Source: Actinomycetota bacterium
Lineage (GTDB): Bacteria; Actinomycetota; Thermoleophilia; Gaiellales; Gaiellaceae
Assembly (NCBI GenBank): GCA_013694685.1
Contig: JACDBY010000259.1
Span: 1-11,524 of the forward strand
Direction of reading: 5' to 3'
Length of the DNA stretch: 11,524 nucleotides
The translations under genes and the position numbers were made by a program. The notes beneath the pieces were generated by a model that did no database searches, was not told the DNA's origin, and was given only the letters and a program-made list of their open reading frames with translations. This document shows, piece after piece, positions 1,785-10,894 of the stretch (the first letter of the stretch is position 1; each line of letters starts with the position of its first letter).

Positions 1785-1795
1785 GCGAAGAGCAC

Positions 1796-1817
1796 GTGTC
1801 CGACTGAAGTCGGACAC
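1796..1817 (+). repeat. Palindromic repeat, copy 1
   Basis: Perfect 10-bp arms GTGTCCGACT and AGTCGGACAC flank a GA centre. The copy is preceded by GAAGAGCAC (1787-1795), a flank shared with copy 2 and, with one change, with inverted copy 4. It sits between the yebC stop and ruvC. It can form a stable hairpin but has no following T run. Confidence 0.9.
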
Positions 1818-1820
1818 GGG

Positions 1821-1852
1821 TCGGACAGCTCGGAAACAGGAGTTGTCCGAGC
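1821..1852 (+). other. Second, alternative hairpin in the yebC-ruvC gap
   Basis: Right after repeat copy 1, two overlapping inverted repeats are present: TCGGACA (1821-1827) with TGTCCGA (1844-1850), and GCTCGGA (1828-1834) with TCCGAGC (1846-1852). They compete with each other, and the first arm can also pair with TGTCCGA inside copy 1 (1797-1803). This gives several mutually exclusive folds just before ruvC. Confidence 0.4.
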
Positions 1853-1859
1853 GGCTCCG

Positions 1860-1865
1860 TACCCT
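1860..1865 (+). promoter_or_regulatory. Putative ruvC -10 element (leaderless start)
   Basis: TACCCT lies exactly 6 nt before the ruvC GTG. There is no Shine-Dalgarno at a proper distance; the nearest purine run, AGGAG, is about 30 nt upstream. No -35 is recognisable, so the call rests on the spacing shared with pdxT, rel and the gene at 5564. Confidence 0.35.
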
Positions 1866-1871
1866 CCATAC

Positions 1872-2360
1872 GTGAAGGTCCTCGGCATCGACCCTGGGAC
1901 GGCTGCGTGCGGGTACGGAATCGTCCTCGAAAGCGGCGGGCGAATCAGAGCGGTTGCGCACGGGTGTTGGACGTCGGGCGCCAGAGAGCGCCCGGAGCTT
2001 CGGCTCAGGAGGATCTTCGACGGGGTCGCCGCGCTCATCCGGGAGCACGAGCCGGACGCTGTGGCGCTGGAGGAGTCGTTCGTCGGTGCCGACGCCCGCA
2101 TCGCGCTCTTCGTCGGGCAGGCGCGCGGCGCCGCGCTCGTCGCGGCCGCGTCGGCCGGAGTCGCGTGCACCGAATACGCGCCGGCGCGCGTGAAGCAGTC
2201 GGTGTGCGGCTACGGCCGGGCCGACAAGGGCCAGGTGGCGCGCATGGTTCGCATGCTGCTCTCGCTCGAGGCGGAACCCGCGACCTCGCACGAGTCGGAC
2301 GCGCTCGCCGTCGCGATCTGCCATGCGTCGATGCCGCCCCTCGCACGGGTCGCCTCGTGA
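1872..2360 (+). CDS. ruvC: Crossover junction endodeoxyribonuclease RuvC
   Basis: RuvC is the dimeric resolvase that nicks Holliday junctions symmetrically, working with the RuvAB motor. The 162-residue protein starts at GTG (VKVLGIDPGTAACGYG) and shows the RNase H-like active site: Asp7 in GIDPG, Glu67 in ALEESF, and His140 with Asp143 in SHESDALAVA, the D-E-H-D set known from Thermus RuvC. The segment RVKQSVCGYGRADKGQV (107-122) is the conserved DNA-binding region. The length is slightly short but complete. It is separated from yebC by an 87-bp gap with the palindromic repeat and a possible promoter, and from ruvA by only 10 bp with a strong Shine-Dalgarno, so ruvC and ruvA are surely in one transcript. 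Confidence 0.97.
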   Translation: MKVLGIDPGTAACGYGIVLESGGRIRAVAHGCWTSGARERPELRLRRIFDGVAALIREHEPDAVALEESFVGADARIALFVGQARGAALVAAASAGVACTEYAPARVKQSVCGYGRADKGQVARMVRMLLSLEAEPATSHESDALAVAICHASMPPLARVAS

Positions 2361-2365
2361 GGAGG
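2361..2365 (+). promoter_or_regulatory. Ribosome binding site of ruvA
   Basis: GGAGG immediately follows the ruvC TGA and lies 5 nt before the GTG at 2371. It selects the start giving MISRLRG, the conserved RuvA N-terminus, over the ATG at 2323 inside ruvC. Confidence 0.8.
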
Positions 2366-2370
2366 CCGGC

Positions 2371-2946
2371 GTGATCTCGCGCCTCCGCGGGCATCCCGCC
2401 GGCCGGAGCGGGGATGGGCTCGTGCTCGACGTGAACGGCGTCGGCTATCTCGTGGCAGCGACGCCCGGGATCCTGCGACGCGCCTCGGCCGGATCGGAGC
2501 TCACCGTCGAGACGTACCTCCACGTCCGTGAGGACGCCCTGCAGCTCTACGGCTTCGTCGATGCGGACGAGCGCGAGCTCTTCGTGCACCTGCTCACCGT
2601 GAGTGGCATCGGGCCGAAGGTCGCGCTCGCGGTCGTCTCGGGGTCGCCCGCGTCCGAGCTTCGTCGTGCGATCGCGCTCGGCGACCACGCCCGCTTCCAG
2701 GCGATCCCCGGCATCGGCAAGAAGACCGCCGAGCGCATCGTGCTCGAGCTGAAGGAGAAGCTCGGCGCCGCGCTCGAGCCCGGAATCGTGAGCATTGCCG
2801 ACGCGCCCGGTCATCTCGTCGCCCGCGACGCGCTCGTCGAGCTCGGTTACACGGTGCTCGACGCCGAGCGCCTCCTCGCCGAGACCGATCCGGAGCTCGC
2901 ACCCGAGGAGCGAGTGCGGATCGCGTTGCGTGGAGCGGCGGCATGA
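2371..2946 (+). CDS. ruvA: Holliday junction branch migration complex subunit RuvA
   Basis: RuvA tetramers bind the four-way junction and load the RuvB motors. The 191-residue protein has the three family domains: an OB-fold at about 1-62 (MISRLRG...GVGYLV...EDALQLYGF, with the acidic pin at Glu54/Asp55); a tandem helix-hairpin-helix domain with [10 protein letters not shown] (78-87) and [19 protein letters not shown] (112-130); and the C-terminal RuvB-contacting domain at about 148-190 ([10 protein letters not shown]...EERVRIAL). The linker between domains II and III is short. The GTG start follows a clear Shine-Dalgarno. The TGA stop overlaps an ATG (ATGA, 2943-2946) that opens a 36-codon ORF running up to ruvB. 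Confidence 0.96.
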
Positions 2947-3053
2947 GCCGGTCGCGAGTACAGGGGGCGCGGCTGAGGCCACGCCCCGAACATCCTCGGT
3001 CTCCCGGGCGTGGCTTCGACCACGCCCGTCACGCCCGCCGGGGATACGGATGA
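2943..3053 (+). CDS. Possible 36-codon ORF coupling ruvA and ruvB
   Basis: An ORF of 36 codons (begins [16 protein letters not shown], ends HARRGYG) starts at an ATGA overlapping the ruvA stop and ends at a TGA overlapping the ruvB ATG, again as ATGA (3050-3053). A GGAG at 2932-2935 lies 7 nt before its ATG. The peptide is rich in Arg, Pro, Gly and His and resembles no family I know; that composition is also typical of chance frames in GC-rich DNA. It runs through both hairpins of this gap. If translated, it would more likely act as a coupling leader for ruvB than as a functional protein. It may be coincidence. Confidence 0.25.
2964..2987 (+). other. Hairpin 1 in the ruvA-ruvB gap
   Basis: Arms GGGGCGCGGC (2964-2973) and GCCACGCCCC (2978-2987) pair with one C-A mismatch around a TGAG loop. 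No T run follows, so it is not a standard intrinsic terminator. Confidence 0.55.
3005..3028 (+). other. Hairpin 2 in the ruvA-ruvB gap
   Basis: Perfect 9-bp arms CGGGCGTGG (3005-3013) and CCACGCCCG (3020-3028) surround a CTTCGA loop. Its left arm (GGGCGTGGC, 3006-3014) is also perfectly complementary to the right arm of hairpin 1 (GCCACGCCC, 2978-2986), so an alternative 9-bp stem would disrupt both hairpins. Confidence 0.6.
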
Positions 3054-4054
3054 GCCAATTCCTCGCGCCCGCTCTGGGGCCGGAGGACGAAGAGGCCGAA
3101 CGGTCGCTGCGACCGAAGCGCCTCGAGGACTTCGTCGGGCAGGAGCGCGTCAAGGAGCAGCTACGGATTGCCCTCGAGGCCGCGACCGGACGGTCGGAGG
3201 CGCTCGACCACGTCCTCCTCGCCGGGCCGCCGGGCCTCGGCAAGACGACGCTCGCGCAGATCATCCGCGAGGAGCTCGGCGTGGGGCTCCGGACGGTCGC
3301 AGGGCCCGCGCTCGAGAAGAAGGACATCGCGGCGATCCTCACCACGCTCGAGCCGCGCGACGTCCTCTTCGTCGACGAGATCCATCGCCTCACGCGCTCG
3401 GCCGAGGAGATCCTCTATCCGGCGCTCGAGGACTTCAGGCTCGACATCGTCTTCGGTCAGGGAGCGGCGGCCCGCACGCTGACGCTCGACCTGCCGCCGT
3501 TCACGCTCGTCGGCGCGACGACGCGCACCGGTCTCCTGACGACGCCGTTGCGCGACCGGTTCGGGATGACGTTCCGCCTGGGCTACTACGACCCGGGGCA
3601 GCTCGCCTCGATCGTCCGCCGCTCGGCCGGGATCCTGGGCGTCGAGCTCTCCGAGGACGCCGCCGACGAGATCGCCTCCCGCTCGCGTGGCACGCCGCGC
3701 ATTGCAAACCGCATCCTCCGGCGCGTTCGCGACGTCGCGGAGGTGCGGCACGCCGGGGCGATCACCACGGAGGTGGCCCGCGAGGCGCTCGAGCTGCACG
3801 AGGTCGACGAGCAGGGTCTCGAGCGGATCGACCGCGAGCTGCTCGAGGCGATCGCGCACAAGTTCGGCGGCGGTCCGGTGGGGCTCTCGACCCTCGCCGT
3901 CGCGCTGGGCGAGGAGACCGACACGATCGAGGACGTCTACGAGCCGTACCTCCTCAAGCTCGGGTTCCTGCAGCGAACCCCGCGCGGGCGCGTGATCACC
4001 GAGCTCGGGCGCGCGCACCTCGGAACGGTGCAGGACGAGGAGAGTCTCTTCTGA
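3050..4054 (+). CDS. ruvB: Holliday junction branch migration ATPase RuvB
   Basis: RuvB is the hexameric AAA+ motor that drives branch migration on RuvA-bound junctions. The 334-residue protein has Walker [10 protein letters not shown] (59-67), Walker B LFVDEIH (106-112), sensor 1 GATTRTG (155-161), the arginine finger in LRDRFG (Arg170), sensor 2 [10 protein letters not shown], and the winged-helix C-terminus ([25 protein letters not shown]). The length matches the family. The ATG at 3050 gives [23 protein letters not shown], the usual start region; the frame is open further upstream, but that sequence is not RuvB-like. GGGGA at 3040-3044 is a weak ribosome site. A 103-bp gap with two hairpins separates it from ruvA, unusual for this normally tight pair. 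Confidence 0.97.
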
Positions 4055-4077
4055 CGGCGCATCTCTGGACGCCCGGG

Positions 4078-4380
4078 ATGGCAGGCCCGCTCGAGGAGCT
4101 CGTCAAGCGGATCCTCCGGCGCGTCGAGCAGTTCAAGGAGGAGCATGGCCTGGCGGAGGTCGTCGTGAGCATCGAGCTCGTCGACGGATCGCTCCACCGC
4201 TTGAAGACGCTCTCCGCCGAGCCCGGCTTCGGGTTCCTCAGCTTCTGCCCGCACTGCGGCGAAGGGGAGGATCCCGAGGAGATCATCGTTCCACTCGGTG
4301 CCGTGCGCGAGATGCGGATCGGTGCCCCAGGGCCTGAGCAGACAGTCGGCTTCACGGGGACAGTGCAGTCGCGAGAGTGA
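4078..4380 (+). CDS. Uncharacterised 100-aa protein with a CPHC motif
   Basis: I do not recognise this family. The ATG at 4078 lies 23 bp after ruvB and opens a 100-residue protein. Residues 4-24 look like an amphipathic charged helix (PLEELVKRILRRVEQFKEEHG). A beta-rich core follows (VVVSIELVDGSLHRLKTL at 28-45, then FGFLSF and EEIIVPLGAVREMRIG at 68-82), and Cys57/Cys60 form a CPHC pair in between. The alternating strands resemble a small beta-barrel, and the single CxxC could bind metal with help from His or act in redox; two cysteines alone do not make a classic zinc ribbon. No signal peptide or membrane helix is seen. Position suggests transcription with ruvB. The frame is open well upstream inside ruvB, but only as its shadow. 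Confidence 0.75.
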   Translation: MAGPLEELVKRILRRVEQFKEEHGLAEVVVSIELVDGSLHRLKTLSAEPGFGFLSFCPHCGEGEDPEEIIVPLGAVREMRIGAPGPEQTVGFTGTVQSRE

Positions 4381-4398
4381 ACCCCGAGCCGTCTGGCA

Positions 4399-5079
4399 AT
4401 GACGAGGTGCGAACTGTCGGGTGGTCGCGTCACCCCTGGTGTCGTGCGCGTCGGGCAGACCGTGCGGCGGCCGATGGGGCCTCGTGCTCCATTCGTCCAC
4501 GAGTTGCTGCGGCATCTCGACGGCGTTGGCTTCGTTGGTGCGCCGAAGCTTCTCGGTGTGGACGACGTCGGTCGCGAGATCATCACGTTCCTTCCCGGAG
4601 CGCCGATGCCGGGAACAGTCATCCTCGGTGACGCCGAGATTCTGTCGGCCGCGATGCTTCTTCGGCAGTACCACGACGCTGCCGCCGGGATGTCAGCCGA
4701 CGTCCTGGGGCGTCACGAGACGGTCGTGCACGGCGATCTCGGGTCGTGGAACATCCTCTGGCTCGATGGAAACGCCGTGGCGTTGATCGACTTCGACGAG
4801 GCGCGCCCCGGAGAGCGCCTGGAGGATGTCGGCTATTTCGCCTGGAAGGGGTTGCGGCTCGTGGCCGAGGGTCCCCTGGTAGAGGATCAGCGGCGGCGCC
4901 TCTCCATCCTCGCCGAGGGATACGGCGTCCGCGTCGACGACGACCTTCTCGACGCCATCGAAGCAGCAGTCGCCTGGCTCACCGACAAGGGACGGGCGGA
5001 GGCGTGGCCGGACGACGCTCTGGCGCAACTCGACGGCAAGCGACGATGGCTCGGACAGGTTCGGCCGCGGCTTTTCTAG
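4399..5079 (+). CDS. Aminoglycoside phosphotransferase-family (APH) kinase-like protein
   Basis: This 226-residue protein belongs to the APH/choline kinase-like phosphotransferase superfamily. The catalytic loop is VVHGDLGSWNILW (residues 109-121, Asp113 and Asn118), and the Mg-binding motif is LIDFDEARPG (129-138, Asp131). The N-lobe is short: ELSGGRVTPGVVRVGQTVRRP holds the glycine-rich turn and strand, followed by a GREIITFLPG hinge (58-67). The substrate is unknown; many such actinobacterial proteins act on small metabolites, and resistance should not be assumed. An in-frame TGA at 4378-4380 fixes the start between there and the ATG at 4399, which has no good ribosome site. Its codons contain more T in third position than the neighbours (GTT, GGT), hinting at a different history. 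It converges with the next gene, sharing a CTAG. Confidence 0.85.
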   Translation: MTRCELSGGRVTPGVVRVGQTVRRPMGPRAPFVHELLRHLDGVGFVGAPKLLGVDDVGREIITFLPGAPMPGTVILGDAEILSAAMLLRQYHDAAAGMSADVLGRHETVVHGDLGSWNILWLDGNAVALIDFDEARPGERLEDVGYFAWKGLRLVAEGPLVEDQRRRLSILAEGYGVRVDDDLLDAIEAAVAWLTDKGRAEAWPDDALAQLDGKRRWLGQVRPRLF

Positions 5080-5540
5080 TCCCGAGGAAACTGGAGCGCG
5101 TGCCAGGAGGGTGTGGGCGCGAGCTCCAGAAGGGCGCGGCCGCCGCTAGGTTCGGCGTAGGCGAACTCGGCGTTGTCCTCGTCCCAGGCGACCTCGAGCA
5201 GCCCCTCCTTCACCCGGTGGTCGAGGTACGCGCCGCGGAACACGAGCTTGCGCAACCAGTAGACGAGCGACTCGCCCTCGACGAGCGCCAGACGCTCCCA
5301 ATGCCTGACGAGGTACGAGCCGAGAGTGCTGCGCGCCGCCGCGATCCGGCCGTCGGCAGCGAGCTCGACGAGGTCGGCGACCTCCTCGTCCTCGAGGTCG
5401 TTGGAGGCGACGAGTCCGAGCTTCACGGCCGCGGCGCCGACACGCTCCTCGAAGTCGCGCGTGCCGAAGGAGAAGCGGTACCCGAGAAACTCGAGCGTGT
5501 AGTCGTCGCCCGACGTGTAGTTCCACGCGTCTTCAACCAT
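5076..5540 (-). CDS. Uncharacterised 154-aa protein
   Basis: I do not recognise this family. The reverse-strand ORF starts at the ATG at 5540 (MVEDAWNYTSGDDYTLEFLGYRF) and ends at 5076, where its TAG and the phosphotransferase TAG share one CTAG (5076-5079). The protein is soluble and acidic, with a hydrophobic aromatic-rich N-terminus (YTLEFLGYRFSFG), a helical middle (residues 46-115, including EDEEVADLVELAADGRIAAA and YLVRHWERLALVEGESLVYWLRKLVFRGAYLDHRVKEGLLEVAW) and no cysteine pairs, signal peptide or membrane helix. Coding is supported by strong G/C third positions, precise packing against both neighbours, and a TANNNT hexamer 7 nt before the start. The function is unknown. Confidence 0.8.
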   Translation of the reverse strand: MVEDAWNYTSGDDYTLEFLGYRFSFGTRDFEERVGAAAVKLGLVASNDLEDEEVADLVELAADGRIAAARSTLGSYLVRHWERLALVEGESLVYWLRKLVFRGAYLDHRVKEGLLEVAWDEDNAEFAYAEPSGGRALLELAPTPSWHALQFPRD

Positions 5541-5546
5541 CGAGGA

Positions 5547-5558
5547 GAGGCTAGCCTC
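5547..5558. promoter_or_regulatory. Palindromic shared -10 element of a divergent gene pair
   Basis: GAGGCTAGCCTC is a perfect 12-bp palindrome in the 23-bp gap between two divergent start codons. Read on the plus strand, TAGCCT (5552-5557) lies 6 nt before the ATG at 5564. Read on the minus strand, the same hexamer (5553-5548) lies 7 nt before the ATG at 5540. Both genes would have leaderless mRNAs from one symmetric -10. No strong -35 is seen on either side. Confidence 0.5.
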
Positions 5559-5563
5559 CGGTC

Positions 5564-5773
5564 ATGAAAGACCGTCGGCTCGTCGCCGTGATGGTCGTGG
5601 CCGTACTCGCGACCTGGCTTGTCGGTGCGGCCGTCACGAGGTACTCGGTCGAGCAGATGGCGTACTTCGCGCCGATCGCTGTCTGCGTTCTCGGGGCCAC
5701 GGCGGGAGTGATCATGCTCTGGGTCAAGATCGTCATGCAGACCCGGCGCGAACGCCGCGAGCGACGCGCCTGA
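5564..5773 (+). CDS. Small two-helix membrane protein of unknown function, 69 aa
   Basis: The 69-residue protein has two hydrophobic segments, at about 6-24 (LVAVMVVAVLATWLVGAAV) and 33-57 (AYFAPIAVCVLGATAGVIMLWVKIV). A short loop joins them, and the C-terminal tail is very basic (QTRRERRERRA). By the positive-inside rule the basic N-terminus (MKDRR) and C-terminus would both be cytoplasmic. It resembles many small membrane proteins but no named family I know. Coding is supported by the gene-like third positions, the coherent topology and a -10-like TAGCCT 6 nt before the ATG. It is divergent from the 154-aa gene, from which it is separated by 23 bp, and is followed by repeat copy 2. Confidence 0.75.
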   Translation: MKDRRLVAVMVVAVLATWLVGAAVTRYSVEQMAYFAPIAVCVLGATAGVIMLWVKIVMQTRRERRERRA

Positions 5774-5787
5774 CGCCTGAAGAGCAC

Positions 5788-5809
5788 GTCTCCGACTGAA
5801 GTCGGACAC
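5788..5809 (+). repeat. Palindromic repeat, copy 2
   Basis: This copy is identical to copy 1 except for a G-to-C change at its third base (5790), which breaks one pair of the stem. The preceding GAAGAGCAC (5779-5787) is the same as in copy 1. It starts 14 bp after the stop of the two-helix membrane protein gene. Confidence 0.9.
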
Positions 5810-5835
5810 CGCCTGACCACGAGTGGCAGTTGCGG
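5809..5835 (+). other. Imperfect hairpin next to repeat copy 2
   Basis: Segments CCGC, CTG and CCA pair with TGG, CAG and GCGG, with a one-base bulge on the left and a two-base bulge on the right. It directly abuts copy 2, as hairpins also abut copies 1 and 3. Confidence 0.35.
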
Positions 5836-5872
5836 AACGCTGACGCGAAGGCGGCGGCCCTCAGGGGTCTGC

Positions 5873-5923
5873 CCCACCGTGAGGCGGGGATCAAGCGGTG
5901 GGATTGCGCTCCTGCGGAATCCC
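5873..5923 (+). other. Overlapping inverted repeats upstream of recJ
   Basis: CCCACCG (5873-5879) pairs perfectly with CGGTGGG (5896-5902). The second hairpin, GGGATTGCGC (5900-5909) with GCGGAATCCC (5914-5923) around TCCT, has a single G-G mismatch. The two share bases 5900-5902 and so exclude each other. The second looks like a decayed perfect palindrome of a different repeat family. Nothing else recognisable lies in 5774-5973. Confidence 0.45.
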
Positions 5924-5957
5924 CCTTCGCGCAGCCAGCACCGTCCGATGCCGTCCG

Positions 5958-5963
5958 TACCGT
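5958..5963 (+). promoter_or_regulatory. Possible recJ -10 element
   Basis: TACCGT lies 10 nt before the proposed recJ ATG at 5974, which would leave a leader of about 3 nt. Support is weak; the spacing is longer than at the other leaderless-like starts. Confidence 0.25.
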
Positions 5964-5973
5964 CGAGAAGGCG

Positions 5974-7854
5974 ATGCAGGATGGCCGCTGGACGACCCGA
6001 CCGTGCGACTGGAGCCGCGTGGAGGCTCTGGCCGAGGCGCTCGGGGTGAGCGAGACGACCGCCACCGTCCTCGTCCGCCGCGGGCTCGACGACCCGAACG
6101 CGGCGCGGGCGTTCCTCGAGCACGCGCCGCCACGCCATGACCCGTTTCTGCTCGGCGACATGGAGCAGGCGGTCGAGCGCATCCGGGCGGCGGTCGCTGC
6201 GGGCGAGCGGATCTGCGTCCACGGGGACTACGACGTCGACGGGATCTCCGCCACCGCCGTTGCCGTCCTCGTCCTGCGGGAGCTCGGCGCGAGGGTCGAA
6301 TGGAGGCTTCCGAGCCGCTTCGACGAGGGCTACGGTCTTGCCGCCGAGACGATCGAGCAGCTTGCCGCCGACGGGGTGCATCTCGTCCTGACCGTCGACT
6401 GCGGGATCACCGCGGTCGAGGAGGTGGCGCGGGCGAAGGAGCTCGGCCTGGATGTGATCGTCACCGATCATCATCGCCCGGGTGCGGCCCTGCCGGCGTG
6501 CCCGGTCGTCGCGACCCGCCCGTCGAGCTATCCCTGCGCCGACCTCTGCGGAACGGGCGTCGTCCACACGCTCGGGCGGGCACTCCTCGGTGACGACGAT
6601 CCTGCCCTCGGCCGGATGCTCGATCTCGTCGCGCTCGCGACGATCGCCGACGTCGTCCCGCTCGTCGACGAGAACCGGGCGCTCGCCGCGGCCGGCCTGC
6701 GGTCGCTCGCGCGGACACGCCGACCTGGGCTCCAGGCCCTCATGCAGTCGGCGAAGGTGGATCCGGCGGTCGTCGACTCGACTGCGGTCGGCTTCCGGCT
6801 CGCTCCCCGGATCAATGCCGCAGGACGCCTCGGCCGGCCCGACGTTGCGCTCCAGCTCCTGCTCACCGACGACCGGGGGGAAGCCGACCGGCTCGCGGCG
6901 GAGCTGGAGGATCTGAACCGGGAGCGCCAGGGGGTGGAGGAGAAGATCGTGCGGGAGGCGACGGCACGAGTCGACGCGATGTCACCGGAGGAGCGACGAC
7001 GACGAGGCTACGTCCTTTGGGACGAGGCCTGGCACGAGGGCGTGATCGGCATCGTCGCGTCGCGGCTCGTCGAGCGGTTCCACCGACCGGTCGTGCTCGT
7101 CGCGCGCAGTGGTGACGGATGGAAGGGATCGGGACGCTCGGTGTCCGATTTCGACCTCCACGGGGGCCTTGCGGCCTGCGCCGAGCACCTGCAGCGCTTC
7201 GGGGGCCACCGCGCGGCAGCCGGTCTCTCGATCGCGACCGAGCAGCTCGAGGCGTTCGCGGACGCATTCGCCGCTCATGCCGACGCGACACTCGCGGAAC
7301 TCGATCTCCGTCCCACGACGACGATCGACGCGGTCGTCGCGGCCGGAGACCTCACGCTCGAGCTCGCGCAGGAGCTCGACGGCCTCGCGCCGTTCGGGCT
7401 CGGCAACCCTGAGCCAACGCTCCTCGTCGCGAGCGTCGAGGCGACGGGCGCGGCGACCGTGGGCGAGGGAAAGCACCTCCGCTTCCGCATCAAGCAGCAG
7501 GATCGGGACGGCGGGTCAGCGATTGCATTCGGGCTCGGTGGTGAGCTCGAGCGGCTCATGGGTGCGCCGCGACTCGACGTCGCCTTTCGACTACAGGAGA
7601 ACCGCTGGAACGGCACCATCGCACCTCAGCTAGTCGTCCGCCGCCTCTTCGCGGCGGCAGTCGCCTACGACGCCGTGCGCACCCGGCTCGCGGGGGAGTG
7701 GCGCGCGGGCGAGGGCGCCTGGAGCGCCGAGGCGCGACGCGTCTTCGAGGAGCTCGGCCTGACCGCGGGCGGCGCCCGACGCGAGCTCTACGAGTCGCCG
7801 AGCTTCCGCGCGCTGCTCAACCTCGACGCCGTCGCGCTGCCCCTCGCGGCGTAA
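5974..7854 (+). CDS. recJ: Single-stranded-DNA-specific exonuclease RecJ
   Basis: RecJ degrades single-stranded DNA 5' to 3' in recombinational, mismatch and base-excision repair. From the ATG at 5974 the protein has 626 residues. DHH phosphoesterase motifs are intact: GDYDVDG (84-90), TVDCGI (140-145) and TDHH (164-167). ATIADVVPL follows, and the DHHA1 region carries FGGHRAAAGLSI. The OB-fold and C-terminal region follow, with PFGLGNPEP as a typical block. I chose 5974 because MQDGRWTTRP...EALAEALGVS aligns with the usual RecJ N-terminus; the frame stays open to a TTG-type start at 5830, but that adds 48 unfamiliar residues translated from the palindromic leader. The gene converges with the cupin gene, 20 bp away. 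It keeps functional company with ruvCAB. Confidence 0.93.
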   Translation: MQDGRWTTRPCDWSRVEALAEALGVSETTATVLVRRGLDDPNAARAFLEHAPPRHDPFLLGDMEQAVERIRAAVAAGERICVHGDYDVDGISATAVAVLVLRELGARVEWRLPSRFDEGYGLAAETIEQLAADGVHLVLTVDCGITAVEEVARAKELGLDVIVTDHHRPGAALPACPVVATRPSSYPCADLCGTGVVHTLGRALLGDDDPALGRMLDLVALATIADVVPLVDENRALAAAGLRSLARTRRPGLQALMQSAKVDPAVVDSTAVGFRLAPRINAAGRLGRPDVALQLLLTDDRGEADRLAAELEDLNRERQGVEEKIVREATARVDAMSPEERRRRGYVLWDEAWHEGVIGIVASRLVERFHRPVVLVARSGDGWKGSGRSVSDFDLHGGLAACAEHLQRFGGHRAAAGLSIATEQLEAFADAFAAHADATLAELDLRPTTTIDAVVAAGDLTLELAQELDGLAPFGLGNPEPTLLVASVEATGAATVGEGKHLRFRIKQQDRDGGSAIAFGLGGELERLMGAPRLDVAFRLQENRWNGTIAPQLVVRRLFAAAVAYDAVRTRLAGEWRAGEGAWSAEARRVFEELGLTAGGARRELYESPSFRALLNLDAVALPLAA

Positions 7855-7874
7855 CGGCCTGCCGGCCCGCGCGC

Positions 7875-8348
7875 CTACACCTCGCCGTCGTAGTACTCAA
7901 GCATCTCGCGCCGCATCATGAGTCGGTCGCGGTCGTCGCCGGGCCAGATCCCGACCTTGCCGCTGTCCGGATAGACCGCGATCGCCGGGGTCTGCTTCGT
8001 CGAGCTGATTACGACTCTGGCCGTCTCGTCGCCGAGACAGGTGACCTTGTGCGCGCCGTCGGGCCCGGACGGGAAGCAGACGATGTCGCCCCTGCCGAGC
8101 TCGTCCTCGCCACCGGGGTGTCGAAGCGTGACGTGGCCGGCGAGCACTACGAGCCACTCCTCCTCCGGATACTCGTAGTGGTAAGGGCAGATGCTCTGCC
8201 CCGGGGGCAAGTCGTAGAGCGACGCACCCATCTGGGATGCCCCGAGCGCCGGCCCGAGCCGCGTCGCGCCGACCCGGTATCCCTCGGGATCGCTCTCGTC
8301 GTACTCAGGGACGAGCTCGAACAGGTTGATGCGGCGAAGGCCGTCCAC
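7875..8348 (-). CDS. Cupin-domain protein
   Basis: This 157-residue protein has a single conserved-barrel cupin domain. Motif 1 is PYHYEYPEEEWLVVLAG (residues 55-71): His57 is followed by Glu59 where the classic motif has a second His, with Glu63 or Glu64 as the acidic ligand. Motif 2 is GDIVCFPSGPDGAHKV (87-102), giving His100. Metal binding is therefore likely but with a variant ligand set. The C-terminal part (KQTPAIAVYPDSGKVGIWPG) resembles uncharacterised cupins. The substrate cannot be deduced. The GTG at 8348 gives VDGLRRINLFEL; a TAGGAT hexamer lies 8 nt before it, suggesting a leaderless or nearly leaderless mRNA. It converges with recJ and diverges from the rel region. Confidence 0.85.
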   Translation of the reverse strand: MDGLRRINLFELVPEYDESDPEGYRVGATRLGPALGASQMGASLYDLPPGQSICPYHYEYPEEEWLVVLAGHVTLRHPGGEDELGRGDIVCFPSGPDGAHKVTCLGDETARVVISSTKQTPAIAVYPDSGKVGIWPGDDRDRLMMRREMLEYYDGEV

Positions 8349-8356
8349 TCAGATCG

Positions 8357-8362
8357 ATCCTA
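8357..8362 (-). promoter_or_regulatory. Putative -10 element of the cupin gene
   Basis: On the minus strand TAGGAT lies 8 nt before the GTG at 8348, giving an expected leader of 1-2 nt. No convincing -35 is seen and there is no Shine-Dalgarno. Confidence 0.4.
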
Positions 8363-8391
8363 GTGCTTCGTCCAGCACCGAACGGCGCGCG

Positions 8392-8508
8392 TCACGAGCT
8401 ATGACGCGCTCGGTCCGTCCGCGGACGACTTGCGCGAGAGCTGGCAGCGAGGAGCTGGAGCATCCGGAGGAGCCGGCGCCGCTCGAGGTAGGTCTGCAGG
8501 AGACGCAT
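8392..8508 (-). CDS. Possible 38-aa basic peptide ORF in the cupin-rel gap
   Basis: On the minus strand an ATG at 8508 opens a 38-codon ORF (MRLLQTYLERRRLLRMLQLL, then AASSRASRPRTDRARHSS). The first 22 residues would form a strongly amphipathic, basic helix and the tail is Arg/Ser-rich. It has a weak AAGGGTG before the start. It lies within the 240-bp gap between the cupin and rel starts (8349-8588), whose only other visible content is the two promoters. Composition is also compatible with a chance frame, so I give low confidence. Confidence 0.2.
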   Translation of the reverse strand: MRLLQTYLERRRLLRMLQLLAASSRASRPRTDRARHSS

Positions 8509-8554
8509 GACCACACCCTTTCGCTCACCCCGGATCGCCTCCTGCCGCAATAGG

Positions 8555-8582
8555 GTGACATGGGAGACTCGGCCCGTACACT
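8555..8582 (+). promoter_or_regulatory. rel promoter (-35 GTGACA, -10 TACACT)
   Basis: GTGACA (8555-8560) and TACACT (8577-8582) are separated by 16 bp, a good match to a vegetative sigma-70-type promoter. The -10 ends 6 nt before the ATG at 8589, so the rel mRNA is probably leaderless; no Shine-Dalgarno is present. This is the best supported promoter in the window. Confidence 0.6.
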
Positions 8583-8588
8583 GAGTCC

Positions 8589-10799
8589 ATGGCGGTCGTC
8601 GATGCCGAACGGCACCACGAGAGCCTCGTCGAGGAGCTGCTCGCAAGCGTCGAGACGTACAACCCTGACGTCGACCGCGACCTCGTCCGCCGCGCCTTCG
8701 AGGTCGCCGAGACGAGGCACCGCGGACAGGTACGCCGCTCCGGCGAGGAGTTCATCCACCATCCGTGGGGCGTCGCCTGGATCTGCGCCGAGCTCCACCT
8801 CGACGAGCAGACGATCGCGGCCGCGCTGCTCCATGATGTTGTCGAGGACACCGACGCGGAGCTCGACGAGCTGCGAGCCGAGTTCGGTGATGAGATCGCC
8901 GAGCTCGTCGAAGGCGTCACGAAGCTGACGCGTACGTCGTTCCAGAGCCGCGAGCAGGCCGAGGCCGAGAACTTCCGGAAGATGATCGTCGCGATGGCCA
9001 AGGACGTCCGGGTCATCCTGATCAAGCTCGCCGACCGGCTCCACAACATGCGCACGATCGAATACCAGGGCAAGCAGACGCAGGTGCGAAAGGCCAAGGA
9101 GACGCTCGAGGTCTACGCCCCGCTCGCGCATCGCCTCGGGATACACGCGCTCAAGTGGGAGCTCGAGGACCTCTCGTTCCAGATCCTCCACCCGCGCAAG
9201 TACGCGGAGATCAAGGCGATGGTCGCCGACCGACGCGAGGCACGCGAGCAGCAGGTCGACCAGGCGGGGACGATCCTCGGTCTCGAGCTCGAGAAGGCGG
9301 ACATCCCGGTCGTGATCTCGGGTCGCGCCAAGCACTTCTACTCGATCTACGACAAGATGGCCAAGAAGGGTCGCGAGTTCAACGAGATCTACGACCTCAC
9401 GGCGATGCGCGTCATTGCGGAGCGCTCGGGCGACGACGGAACACGCGACTGCTACGGCGCGCTCGGGATCATCCATTCGCTCTGGAAGCCGATGCCGGGG
9501 CGGTTCAAGGACTTCATCGCGATGCCGAAGCTCAATCGCTACCGGTCGCTCCACACGACCGTGATCGGGCCGGCGGGAACGCCGCTCGAGATCCAGGTGC
9601 GGACGCGCGAGATGCAGGAGGAGGCAGAGCTCGGCGTCGCGGCGCACTGGCTCTACAAGCGCGGACGTGCGGGCAAGCACGACGACGAGTGGCTTGCGTG
9701 GGTGCGGTCGCTCATGGACTGGCAGGGCGACGAGAGCGACGCCGCGGAGTTCATGCGCACGCTGCGCACCGACCTCTTCGACGACGAGGTCTACGTCTTC
9801 ACGCCGAAGGGCGAGGTGAAGACGCTCCCGGCGGGCGCGAGCCCGATCGACTTCGCCTACGCGGTGCACACGGACGTCGGCCACCGTACGGTCGGCGCCA
9901 AGATCAACGGTCGGATCGTGCCGCTCCACTATCGGTTGCAGAACGGCGACTTCGTCGAGATCCTCACGTCCAAGTCGGGGCGCGGGCCGTCACGCGACTG
10001 GCTTTCGCTCGCCGCCTCCTCGCGCGCACGCAACAAGATCCGGCAATGGTTCCAGCGCGAGACGAAGGGCGAGACAGAGCAGAAGGGTCGCGATGCCCTC
10101 GATCAGGCGCTCAAGGCGCAGAATCTGCCCTACAGGAAGCTGCAGGGCTCGAGCGTGCTCACCTCGGTGATCCGCGACCTCGGCTTCAAGAAGGCGGAGG
10201 ACTTCTACCTCGCGCTCGGCTCCGGGAAGATCGGCACGGGCCAGGTCGTCAACAAGGTGCTCCAGAGCCTGAAGACCGACGAGGTCGCCGAGGAGCCGCT
10301 CGTCACGATCAAGCCCGCGGGCCGCAAGCGAATCGTCACCGGCGACTCGCTCGGCGTCACCGTCCCCGGGGTGGAGGACGTGCTCGTCCGGCTCGCCAAG
10401 TGCTGCACCCCCGTGCCCGGCGACGACATCCGCGGCTACATCTCGCTCGGTCGCGGGATCACGATCCACCGGGGCGACTGCCCGAACGTCAAAGCGCTCA
10501 TGCGGAACCCCGAACGCTTCACGCCGGTCGAGTGGGAGGGTGGAGCGGCCTCGGCGAGCTTCCGGGTTCAGATCTCGGTCGAAGCCTGGGATCGAGCACG
10601 CCTGCTCGAGGACGTCGCCCGAACCTATGCCGAGCACGGCGCGAACATCGTCTCGTACGGCGGGTCGGTCGAGGACGGCATGGCCCGCAACTGGTATACG
10701 GCAGAACTCGGCGACACGAAGGATCTGCGTTCGCTGCTGAACGCCCTGCGGAACCTCGACGGCGTCTTCGACGCCTACCGCATGACGCCCGGCGGCTGA
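8589..10799 (+). CDS. rel: Bifunctional (p)ppGpp synthetase/hydrolase Rel
   Basis: Rel makes (p)ppGpp from GDP/GTP and ATP during starvation and hydrolyses it otherwise. The 736-residue protein has all long-RSH domains: an HD hydrolase with FIHHP (55-59) and LLHDVVED (80-87); a synthetase with RAKHFYSIYDKM (246-257), YDLTAMRV (Asp269), GRFKDFIAMPK (304-314) and LEIQVRT (Glu334); TGS at about 398-460 (VYVFTPKGEV...NGDFVEILT); a cysteine-containing domain with AKCCTPVPGDDI and GDCPN (Cys605, Cys606, Cys631); and a C-terminal ACT domain (658-733). The intact HD residues and the RFKD motif, typical of bifunctional enzymes rather than monofunctional RelA, indicate both activities. It is transcribed from its own leaderless-like promoter. 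Its TGA is part of a hairpin that starts a three-hairpin cluster. Confidence 0.97.
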   Translation: MAVVDAERHHESLVEELLASVETYNPDVDRDLVRRAFEVAETRHRGQVRRSGEEFIHHPWGVAWICAELHLDEQTIAAALLHDVVEDTDAELDELRAEFGDEIAELVEGVTKLTRTSFQSREQAEAENFRKMIVAMAKDVRVILIKLADRLHNMRTIEYQGKQTQVRKAKETLEVYAPLAHRLGIHALKWELEDLSFQILHPRKYAEIKAMVADRREAREQQVDQAGTILGLELEKADIPVVISGRAKHFYSIYDKMAKKGREFNEIYDLTAMRVIAERSGDDGTRDCYGALGIIHSLWKPMPGRFKDFIAMPKLNRYRSLHTTVIGPAGTPLEIQVRTREMQEEAELGVAAHWLYKRGRAGKHDDEWLAWVRSLMDWQGDESDAAEFMRTLRTDLFDDEVYVFTPKGEVKTLPAGASPIDFAYAVHTDVGHRTVGAKINGRIVPLHYRLQNGDFVEILTSKSGRGPSRDWLSLAASSRARNKIRQWFQRETKGETEQKGRDALDQALKAQNLPYRKLQGSSVLTSVIRDLGFKKAEDFYLALGSGKIGTGQVVNKVLQSLKTDEVAEEPLVTIKPAGRKRIVTGDSLGVTVPGVEDVLVRLAKCCTPVPGDDIRGYISLGRGITIHRGDCPNVKALMRNPERFTPVEWEGGAASASFRVQISVEAWDRARLLEDVARTYAEHGANIVSYGGSVEDGMARNWYTAELGDTKDLRSLLNALRNLDGVFDAYRMTPGG

Positions 10800-10816
10800 C
10801 GGGGGAGGACCGTCAG
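10796..10816 (+). terminator. Hairpin containing the rel stop codon
   Basis: Perfect 7-bp arms CTGACGG (10796-10802) and CCGTCAG (10810-10816) enclose a GGGAGGA loop; the rel TGA lies in the left arm. The next base starts repeat copy 3. No T run follows, so a role in termination or mRNA 3'-end protection is inferred. Confidence 0.45.
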
Positions 10817-10838
10817 GTGTCCGACTGAAGTCGGACAC
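10817..10838 (+). repeat. Palindromic repeat, copy 3
   Basis: The palindrome is identical to copy 1 but lacks the GAAGAGCAC flank, which is replaced by the rel stop hairpin. It lies 10 bp from inverted copy 4. Confidence 0.9.
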
Positions 10839-10848
10839 CAGGCGGCGG

Positions 10849-10870
10849 GTGTCCGACTTCAGTCGGACAC
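10849..10870 (-). repeat. Palindromic repeat, copy 4 (inverted)
   Basis: This is the exact reverse complement of copies 1 and 3 (TC instead of GA at the centre on the plus strand). On its own strand it is preceded by AAGAGCGC (10871-10878 on the plus strand as GCGCTCTT), matching AAGAGCAC of copies 1 and 2. Copies 3 and 4 thus form an inverted pair, which can fold as two hairpins or as one 22-bp stem with a 10-nt loop. Confidence 0.9.
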
Positions 10871-10894
10871 GCGCTCTTAGACGCTCGCGTTCCC

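Follow-up and report, generated by a model that had tools for sequence, protein, structure and literature searches.

A REP-like family of one-sidedly tagged TGAA-loop hairpins in a Gaiella-group genome

Repetitive extragenic palindromic (REP) elements with a GTAG tag, which go with a REP-associated tyrosine transposase (RAYT, or TnpA-REP), are described as short tagged palindromes in many copies, mostly extragenic and near gene 3' ends, with inverted dimers, copies in genes or giving stop codons, and co-varying stems (PMC3733652, PMC2817692, PMC8266576). More than 100 copies are given as usual for REPs (PMC2817692), and Group 3 REPs are described as perfect palindromes with loop-specific recognition (PMC8266576). 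These reports, together with PMC3116915 on REP doublets (REPINs) and PMC6006769, are the literature with which we compare a 22-bp palindrome found in four copies in an 11,524-nt stretch of Actinomycetota DNA (the window; JACDBY010000259.1, contig 234 of its draft genome). The element has the listed features of GTAG REPs in common with them; it differs in its tag, AGAGCAC in the source genome, and in that no flanking RAYT was found for it. The palindrome probably belongs to a REP-like mobile family whose copies are moved, as folded single strands, by an enzyme of the RAYT type. Among the papers listed in literature searches, none concerned this repeat or a REP family in the Gaiella group (Thermoleophilia); in the main text of PMC3733652, 'actinobacteria' and 'actinomycet' are absent, and its passages on distribution do not name the Gaiella host group among the phyla.

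Copy number and anatomy of the repeat unit

The source genome shares its genus with Gaiella sp. FR_16 (G004); its draft assembly totals 2,558,738 bases over 493 contigs, with 86.68% completeness and 4.57% contamination. The four 22-mers that the original prediction had picked out from the window sequence lie at 1796-1817 (+), 5788-5809 (+), 10817-10838 (+) and 10849-10870 (-), with a one-base difference only at 5788. No match with up to three mismatches occurred in 200 dinucleotide shuffles of the window, and the window had no match to Rfam at gathering scores. Over the whole genome, 52 exact 22-mers and 78 tailed sites with up to three mismatches were counted, the latter being 88 scan rows minus 10 reads of the same site on the other strand, merged by hand. 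Copies beyond the four were thus correctly expected, but the forecast of hundreds was too high for this draft, and 78 tailed sites fall below the number usual for REPs. With 4 copies per 11.5 kb, against 78 per 2.56 Mb, the window is a dense spot.

A looser definition gave 82 copies in 53 contigs (434 kb of the 2.56 Mb, window included), which formed the detailed sample. Since these contigs were picked for holding copies or a Y1 transposase gene, exact copies are over-represented in them. The repeat unit is 29 bp long, with the one-sided tag AGAGCAC directly 5' of a 9-bp stem that carries a TGAA loop. Of the exact hairpins, 51 have left-hand sequence long enough to judge the tag; GAGC stands at -6 to -3 in 42 of these, and the full AGAGCAC in 33. 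Across the 82 copies each of the seven tag letters is conserved at 78-98%, whereas to the right of the hairpin no letter exceeds 55%. The directional tail proposed from three window copies is therefore kept in further copies.

The copy finder demands 8 of 10 paired positions, and pairing was therefore counted in separate scans that left the right-hand letters free. All nine pairs were formed at 61 of 70 sites in the source genome, at 53 of 57 in FR_16 and at 13 of 15 in a third congener, G003 (80% complete). At the 70 sites, pair 6/17 is C-G in 56, G-C in 8, T-A in 3 and unpaired in 3, and pair 8/15 is A-T in 62, G-C in 4, G-T in 2 and unpaired in 2. When the stem letters were fixed and the loop left free, the loop began with T and finished with A in 120 of 126 counts, both strands being counted. 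The stem pairs co-vary and the loop is constant. A perfect stem, a fixed loop and a tolerant tag are shared with Group 3 REPs as described (PMC8266576). CGTC-tagged REPs are likewise described with a 4-nt loop, a 9-bp stem and no known transposase; they differ in their CGTC tag, and the Gaiella stem does not start with A/T pairs (PMC3733652). An obligatory pairing of C-G with G-C stem types is not claimed. The inverted partners of G-type copies (23) are all C-type, but the enrichment of G-type copies in such pairs is slight or runs the other way (Fisher p 0.013 in the source genome, 0.064 in FR_16 and 0.17, reversed, in G003).

In the window the tail is AAGAGCAC in two copies (1788-1795 and 5780-5787) and AAGAGCGC in a third (10878-10871, minus strand); a tailed-site scan places the tags AGAGCAC at 1789..1795 and 5781..5787 (both +) and AGAGCGC at 10871..10877 (-). 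A few source-genome copies keep a tag resembling that of FR_16 instead, such as the copy at 10817, with the divergent CGTCAG at 10811..10816 (+) in place of an AAGAGC-type tail. The first hairpin has its 9-bp stem around a TGAA loop at 1805-1808, and the second has one position unpaired (GTCTCC...GGACAC). The fourth is inverted relative to the third, with 10 nt between them and the tags outside. A second hairpin had been proposed beside every site; one is clear at two of the three, namely at 1821..1850 (+) and in the inverted pair 10817/10849, while no clear partner was seen at 5788. The hairpin at 1821..1850, TCGGACAGCTC...GAGTTGTCCGA (arms 1821-1831 and 1840-1850), is akin to the right arm of the palindrome and has a loop other than TGAA. 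Right-arm fragments, GTCGGACA, also recur within 50 nt to the right of the hairpin in 17 of the 82 copies and to the left in 6 (for example L140 and L101).

Placement relative to genes and across congeners

Genes in the 53 contigs, window included, were called with our own codon-usage script; the names yebC, ruvC, recJ, relA and sigma factor are those we presume from the translations. The window copies begin 11, 14 and 17 nt past stop codons at 1784 (yebC), 5773 and 10799 (relA), as predicted. Tandem gaps take 35 of the 82 copies, convergent gaps 14 and divergent gaps 8; a further 7 are at contig edges, and the remaining 18 overlap with called genes. Intergenic copies thus number 57, in DNA of which 91.5% is called coding. 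Of these 57 copies, 29 have a gene 3' end no more than 30 nt away, compared with 13.1 in simulation (sd 3.2, maximum 24 in 2000 runs); near gene 5' ends there are 16, for 15.0 expected. Siting is thus non-random and favours gene 3' ends, and does not fit scattering within genes. In nine copies the hairpin loop itself supplies the stop codon, always as GTG TCC GAC TGA, giving the protein ends EHVSD (six), EQVSD, ERVSD and EPVSD, and in five further copies the gene stop ends 3-6 nt before the hairpin. The loop is the source of the stop in the Gaiella element, whereas in GTAG REPs as described it is the tag (PMC3733652, PMC2817692, PMC8266576). In L121 (about 9366-9394) the unit lies in frame within a long gene and belongs to a 13-residue insert missing from the FR_16 protein.

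Many near-identical palindromes 3' of genes, and the tandem arrays of FR_16, could also be expected of a recognition site for a double-strand DNA-binding protein, whether a regulator, a nucleoid protein or an uptake system. Such an origin is very unlikely, however, as only 18 of 82 copies overlap called genes although coding calls cover about 91% of the DNA, a gene-avoiding placement unlike that of uptake words. The TGAA strand is moreover linked to the tag side and the stem pairs co-vary, and a duplex site needs neither.

The occupied gaps of the window differ between congeners. The relA gene was found in six of the seven genomes of the genus; the 260 nt after its stop hold the inverted pair in the source genome and no copy in the five congeners (G002, G003, G004, G005 and G006). 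After yebC, found in all seven, G004 has two family hairpins, arranged differently, and G001 an imperfect hairpin of another kind that shares the CTGAAG centre; no family hairpin was seen there in G002, G003, G005 or G006, and in G002, G003 and G005 a different gene follows yebC. In neighbourhoods shared with FR_16, four sites (L105, L138, L125 and L121) are occupied in the source genome and empty in FR_16, and one (L129/L186) shows the reverse.

The siting near gene 3' ends, the paired stems, two gaps occupied in both species and the predicted stability of the RNA hairpins (-14.6 kcal/mol for a single one; -51.0 kcal/mol for copies 3 and 4 of the window, able to fold as one long hairpin) would also suit elements retained because they terminate transcription or stabilise mRNA 3' ends, their placement being set by usefulness rather than mobility. 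No copy among the 82 has TTTT within the 14 nt to the right of the hairpin, where T content is 12.8%, and the classical terminator role suggested at the outset is not supported. Near-fixed stem and loop letters, a species-specific one-sided tag, copies inside genes and empty orthologous sites would also be left unexplained. As the primary explanation this is unlikely, and a terminator or stabiliser function fits better as a second role of a mobile repeat.

Tags in relatives and the search for a transposase

The exact palindrome occurs in 4 of 61 relatives, and a pattern with a freer stem in 7 of 103 genomes of the family and 7 of 399 in a sample of the class, with many copies only in the source genome, FR_16 and, fewer, G003. 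The matches listed in a scan of GTDB contigs include FR_16 (JAOSJZ010000001), G003, many in Thiotrichaceae UBA4486 and one or two in at least four other genomes. In IMG/VR, five stretches fit a looser pattern, and none has a TGAA hairpin of at least seven pairs. The three congeners carry one hairpin body with three tags: AGAGCAC in the source genome (82 copies); near-GTAG in FR_16 (C72 G74 T48 A49 G90 per cent in 61 copies, with C85 right of the hairpin); and ACAGCC in G003 (A55 C50 A55 G55 C70 C75 in 20 copies, with G75 on the right). In UBA4486, a gammaproteobacterial draft (L172-L235), many copies of the hairpin core GTGTCNGNC-TGAA-GNCNGACAC have tags that end in AC or read ACGA. They share this core and its abundance with the Gaiella element and differ in tags, stem letters (nine-pair stems in only 16 of 54, A-A at pair 6/17 in 20) and distant phylum; misassembly or transfer is possible.

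Within 120 nt of each other, 15 dimers were found in the source-genome contigs (6 with tags outside, 4 inside, 5 in the same direction), 23 in FR_16 (3, 16 and 4) and 7 in G003 (3, 2 and 2). The 16 tag-inside dimers of FR_16, 11 of them spaced by 27-32 nt, resemble REPINs as described in PMC3116915. FR_16 also has tandem arrays at L072 1065-1745 and L086 751-1073, whose repeat units, of about 133 and 60 bases, each contain the hairpin. The source genome differs from the REPIN description in that 53 of its 82 copies are singlets and these are not less conserved than clustered copies (PMC3116915). Exact hairpins make up 41 of the 53 singlets compared with 17 of the 29 clustered copies (p 0.08, in contigs picked for holding copies). 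Doublets, which should predominate and be better conserved in REPINs, do neither here, and singlet dominance and conservation lean against the REPIN model for the source genome.

A RAYT gene flanked by the palindrome was sought, and none was found in the three carrier genomes, the source genome being a draft. The transposase search used PF01797 only, which matched in 40 of the 61 genomes and in 4 of 5 further genomes reached through loci, with two matches in the source genome and one each in G003 and G004. Each candidate was rejected as the cognate gene. The intact REP-type transposase gene of the source genome (L092; G000 contig 241) is flanked by a different palindrome, CTACGTGCCTGGCAC, two of whose three genome copies lie at the gene, and the second match (L093) is weak and broken. 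The G003 gene has GTCAGGTCTTGCATTC at its flanks, and L094, the only such gene found in FR_16, sits among GGTGTCWGACACC sites. Copies of the GGTGTCWGACACC palindrome number 67 in FR_16, 19 in the source genome, 1 in G003 and 0 in four other congeners. A common system with the 22-mer had been suspected, but these sites are flanked by TTGACA...CG to their left and CG to their right, not by the 22-mer tags, and are therefore taken as a separate family. In this family (GTGTCWGACAC sites; L094, L289-L328) downstream gene starts (31) and ends (27) are about equal, and several source-genome copies adjoin TTGTCCACAG, which we take to be DnaA-box-like.

Sister hairpins do lie beside Y1 genes. In G001 a Y1 gene (L097 3240-4122), scoring 52.7 bits to NF047646 (cut-off 80), has the hairpin GGGTGAGGC-TGAA-GCCTCACCC on both sides; matches to this hairpin number 8 in G001, 19 in G003, 2 in G002 and 0 in the source genome. 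In UBA4486, a Y1 gene interrupted by undetermined bases is preceded, at about 0.2-0.5 kb, by three TGAA hairpins. The likeliest mover of the 22-mer element, not a proven one, is therefore a RAYT. The alternative that the copies derive from an insertion sequence or a miniature inverted-repeat transposable element of another transposase class, as its ends or remnants, draws on the same missing flanking Y1 gene, in a search confined to PF01797, and on the dimers of the source-genome contigs and FR_16 loci. It is quite unlikely, as 53 of the 82 copies lack a second copy within 120 nt and conservation stops at the tag and at the right end of the hairpin.

A probably mobile hairpin and its tag

Mobility by a RAYT-type enzyme would most likely proceed as follows. 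When the DNA is single-stranded, the strand with the tag and TGAA loop would fold, and a RAYT-type HuH/Y1 transposase encoded at another locus would recognise the loop, the stem and perhaps the tag. The transposase would cut the hairpin strand and rejoin it at new places, where copies would persist mostly in short gaps after genes, the loop even being usable as a stop codon. As part of the mRNA 3' end, the hairpin might also stabilise the message.

Several observations weigh against this reading. None of the PF01797 genes in the source genome (86.7% complete), G003 or G004 is flanked by the 22-mer family, and the interrupted Y1 gene of UBA4486 is flanked on one side only. The GTAG tag is absent from the source genome, and near-GTAG occurs only in FR_16. 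Pair 6/17 is broken in 3 of 70 source-genome sites as well as in 20 of 54 UBA4486 sites. The L112/L185 and yebC gaps are occupied in both species, so these may be old, retained copies. Presence and absence were compared between species rather than strains, with the exact inserted length unproven.

The REP-like family is real, and its tag and host group are new as far as our searches reach. Its palindromic 29-bp unit falls in the 20-40 bp range of REPs in the broad sense, and like them it is in high copy, mostly extragenic and near gene 3' ends, and forms inverted dimers; we do not file it as a GTAG REP because a GTAG tag and a flanking RAYT were looked for and not found, though it probably works as one does. 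The idea of a mobile family like REPs or bacterial interspersed mosaic elements, raised in the original prediction, stands on copy number, directional tag, placement, inverted dimers and presence/absence, and has lost its hundreds of copies and its flanking RAYT. We propose, only tentatively, that the TGAA-loop hairpin is a constant recognition body and the tag a swappable guide, and that the singlet, not the doublet, spreads. If true, tag swapping would be a natural retargeting of a REP transposase by change of guide, as cleavage sites have been shifted in vitro by altering the tag (PMC8266576).

These findings would place a REP family in the Gaiella group, and offer a case where singlets, not doublets, look like the spreading unit. 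The loop stop codon shows how a REP-like element can settle at gene ends almost harmlessly. Most useful is the finding of one hairpin with three tags in sister species: the tag may serve REP transposases as a guide choosing the cleavage site, and these species provide a natural test.

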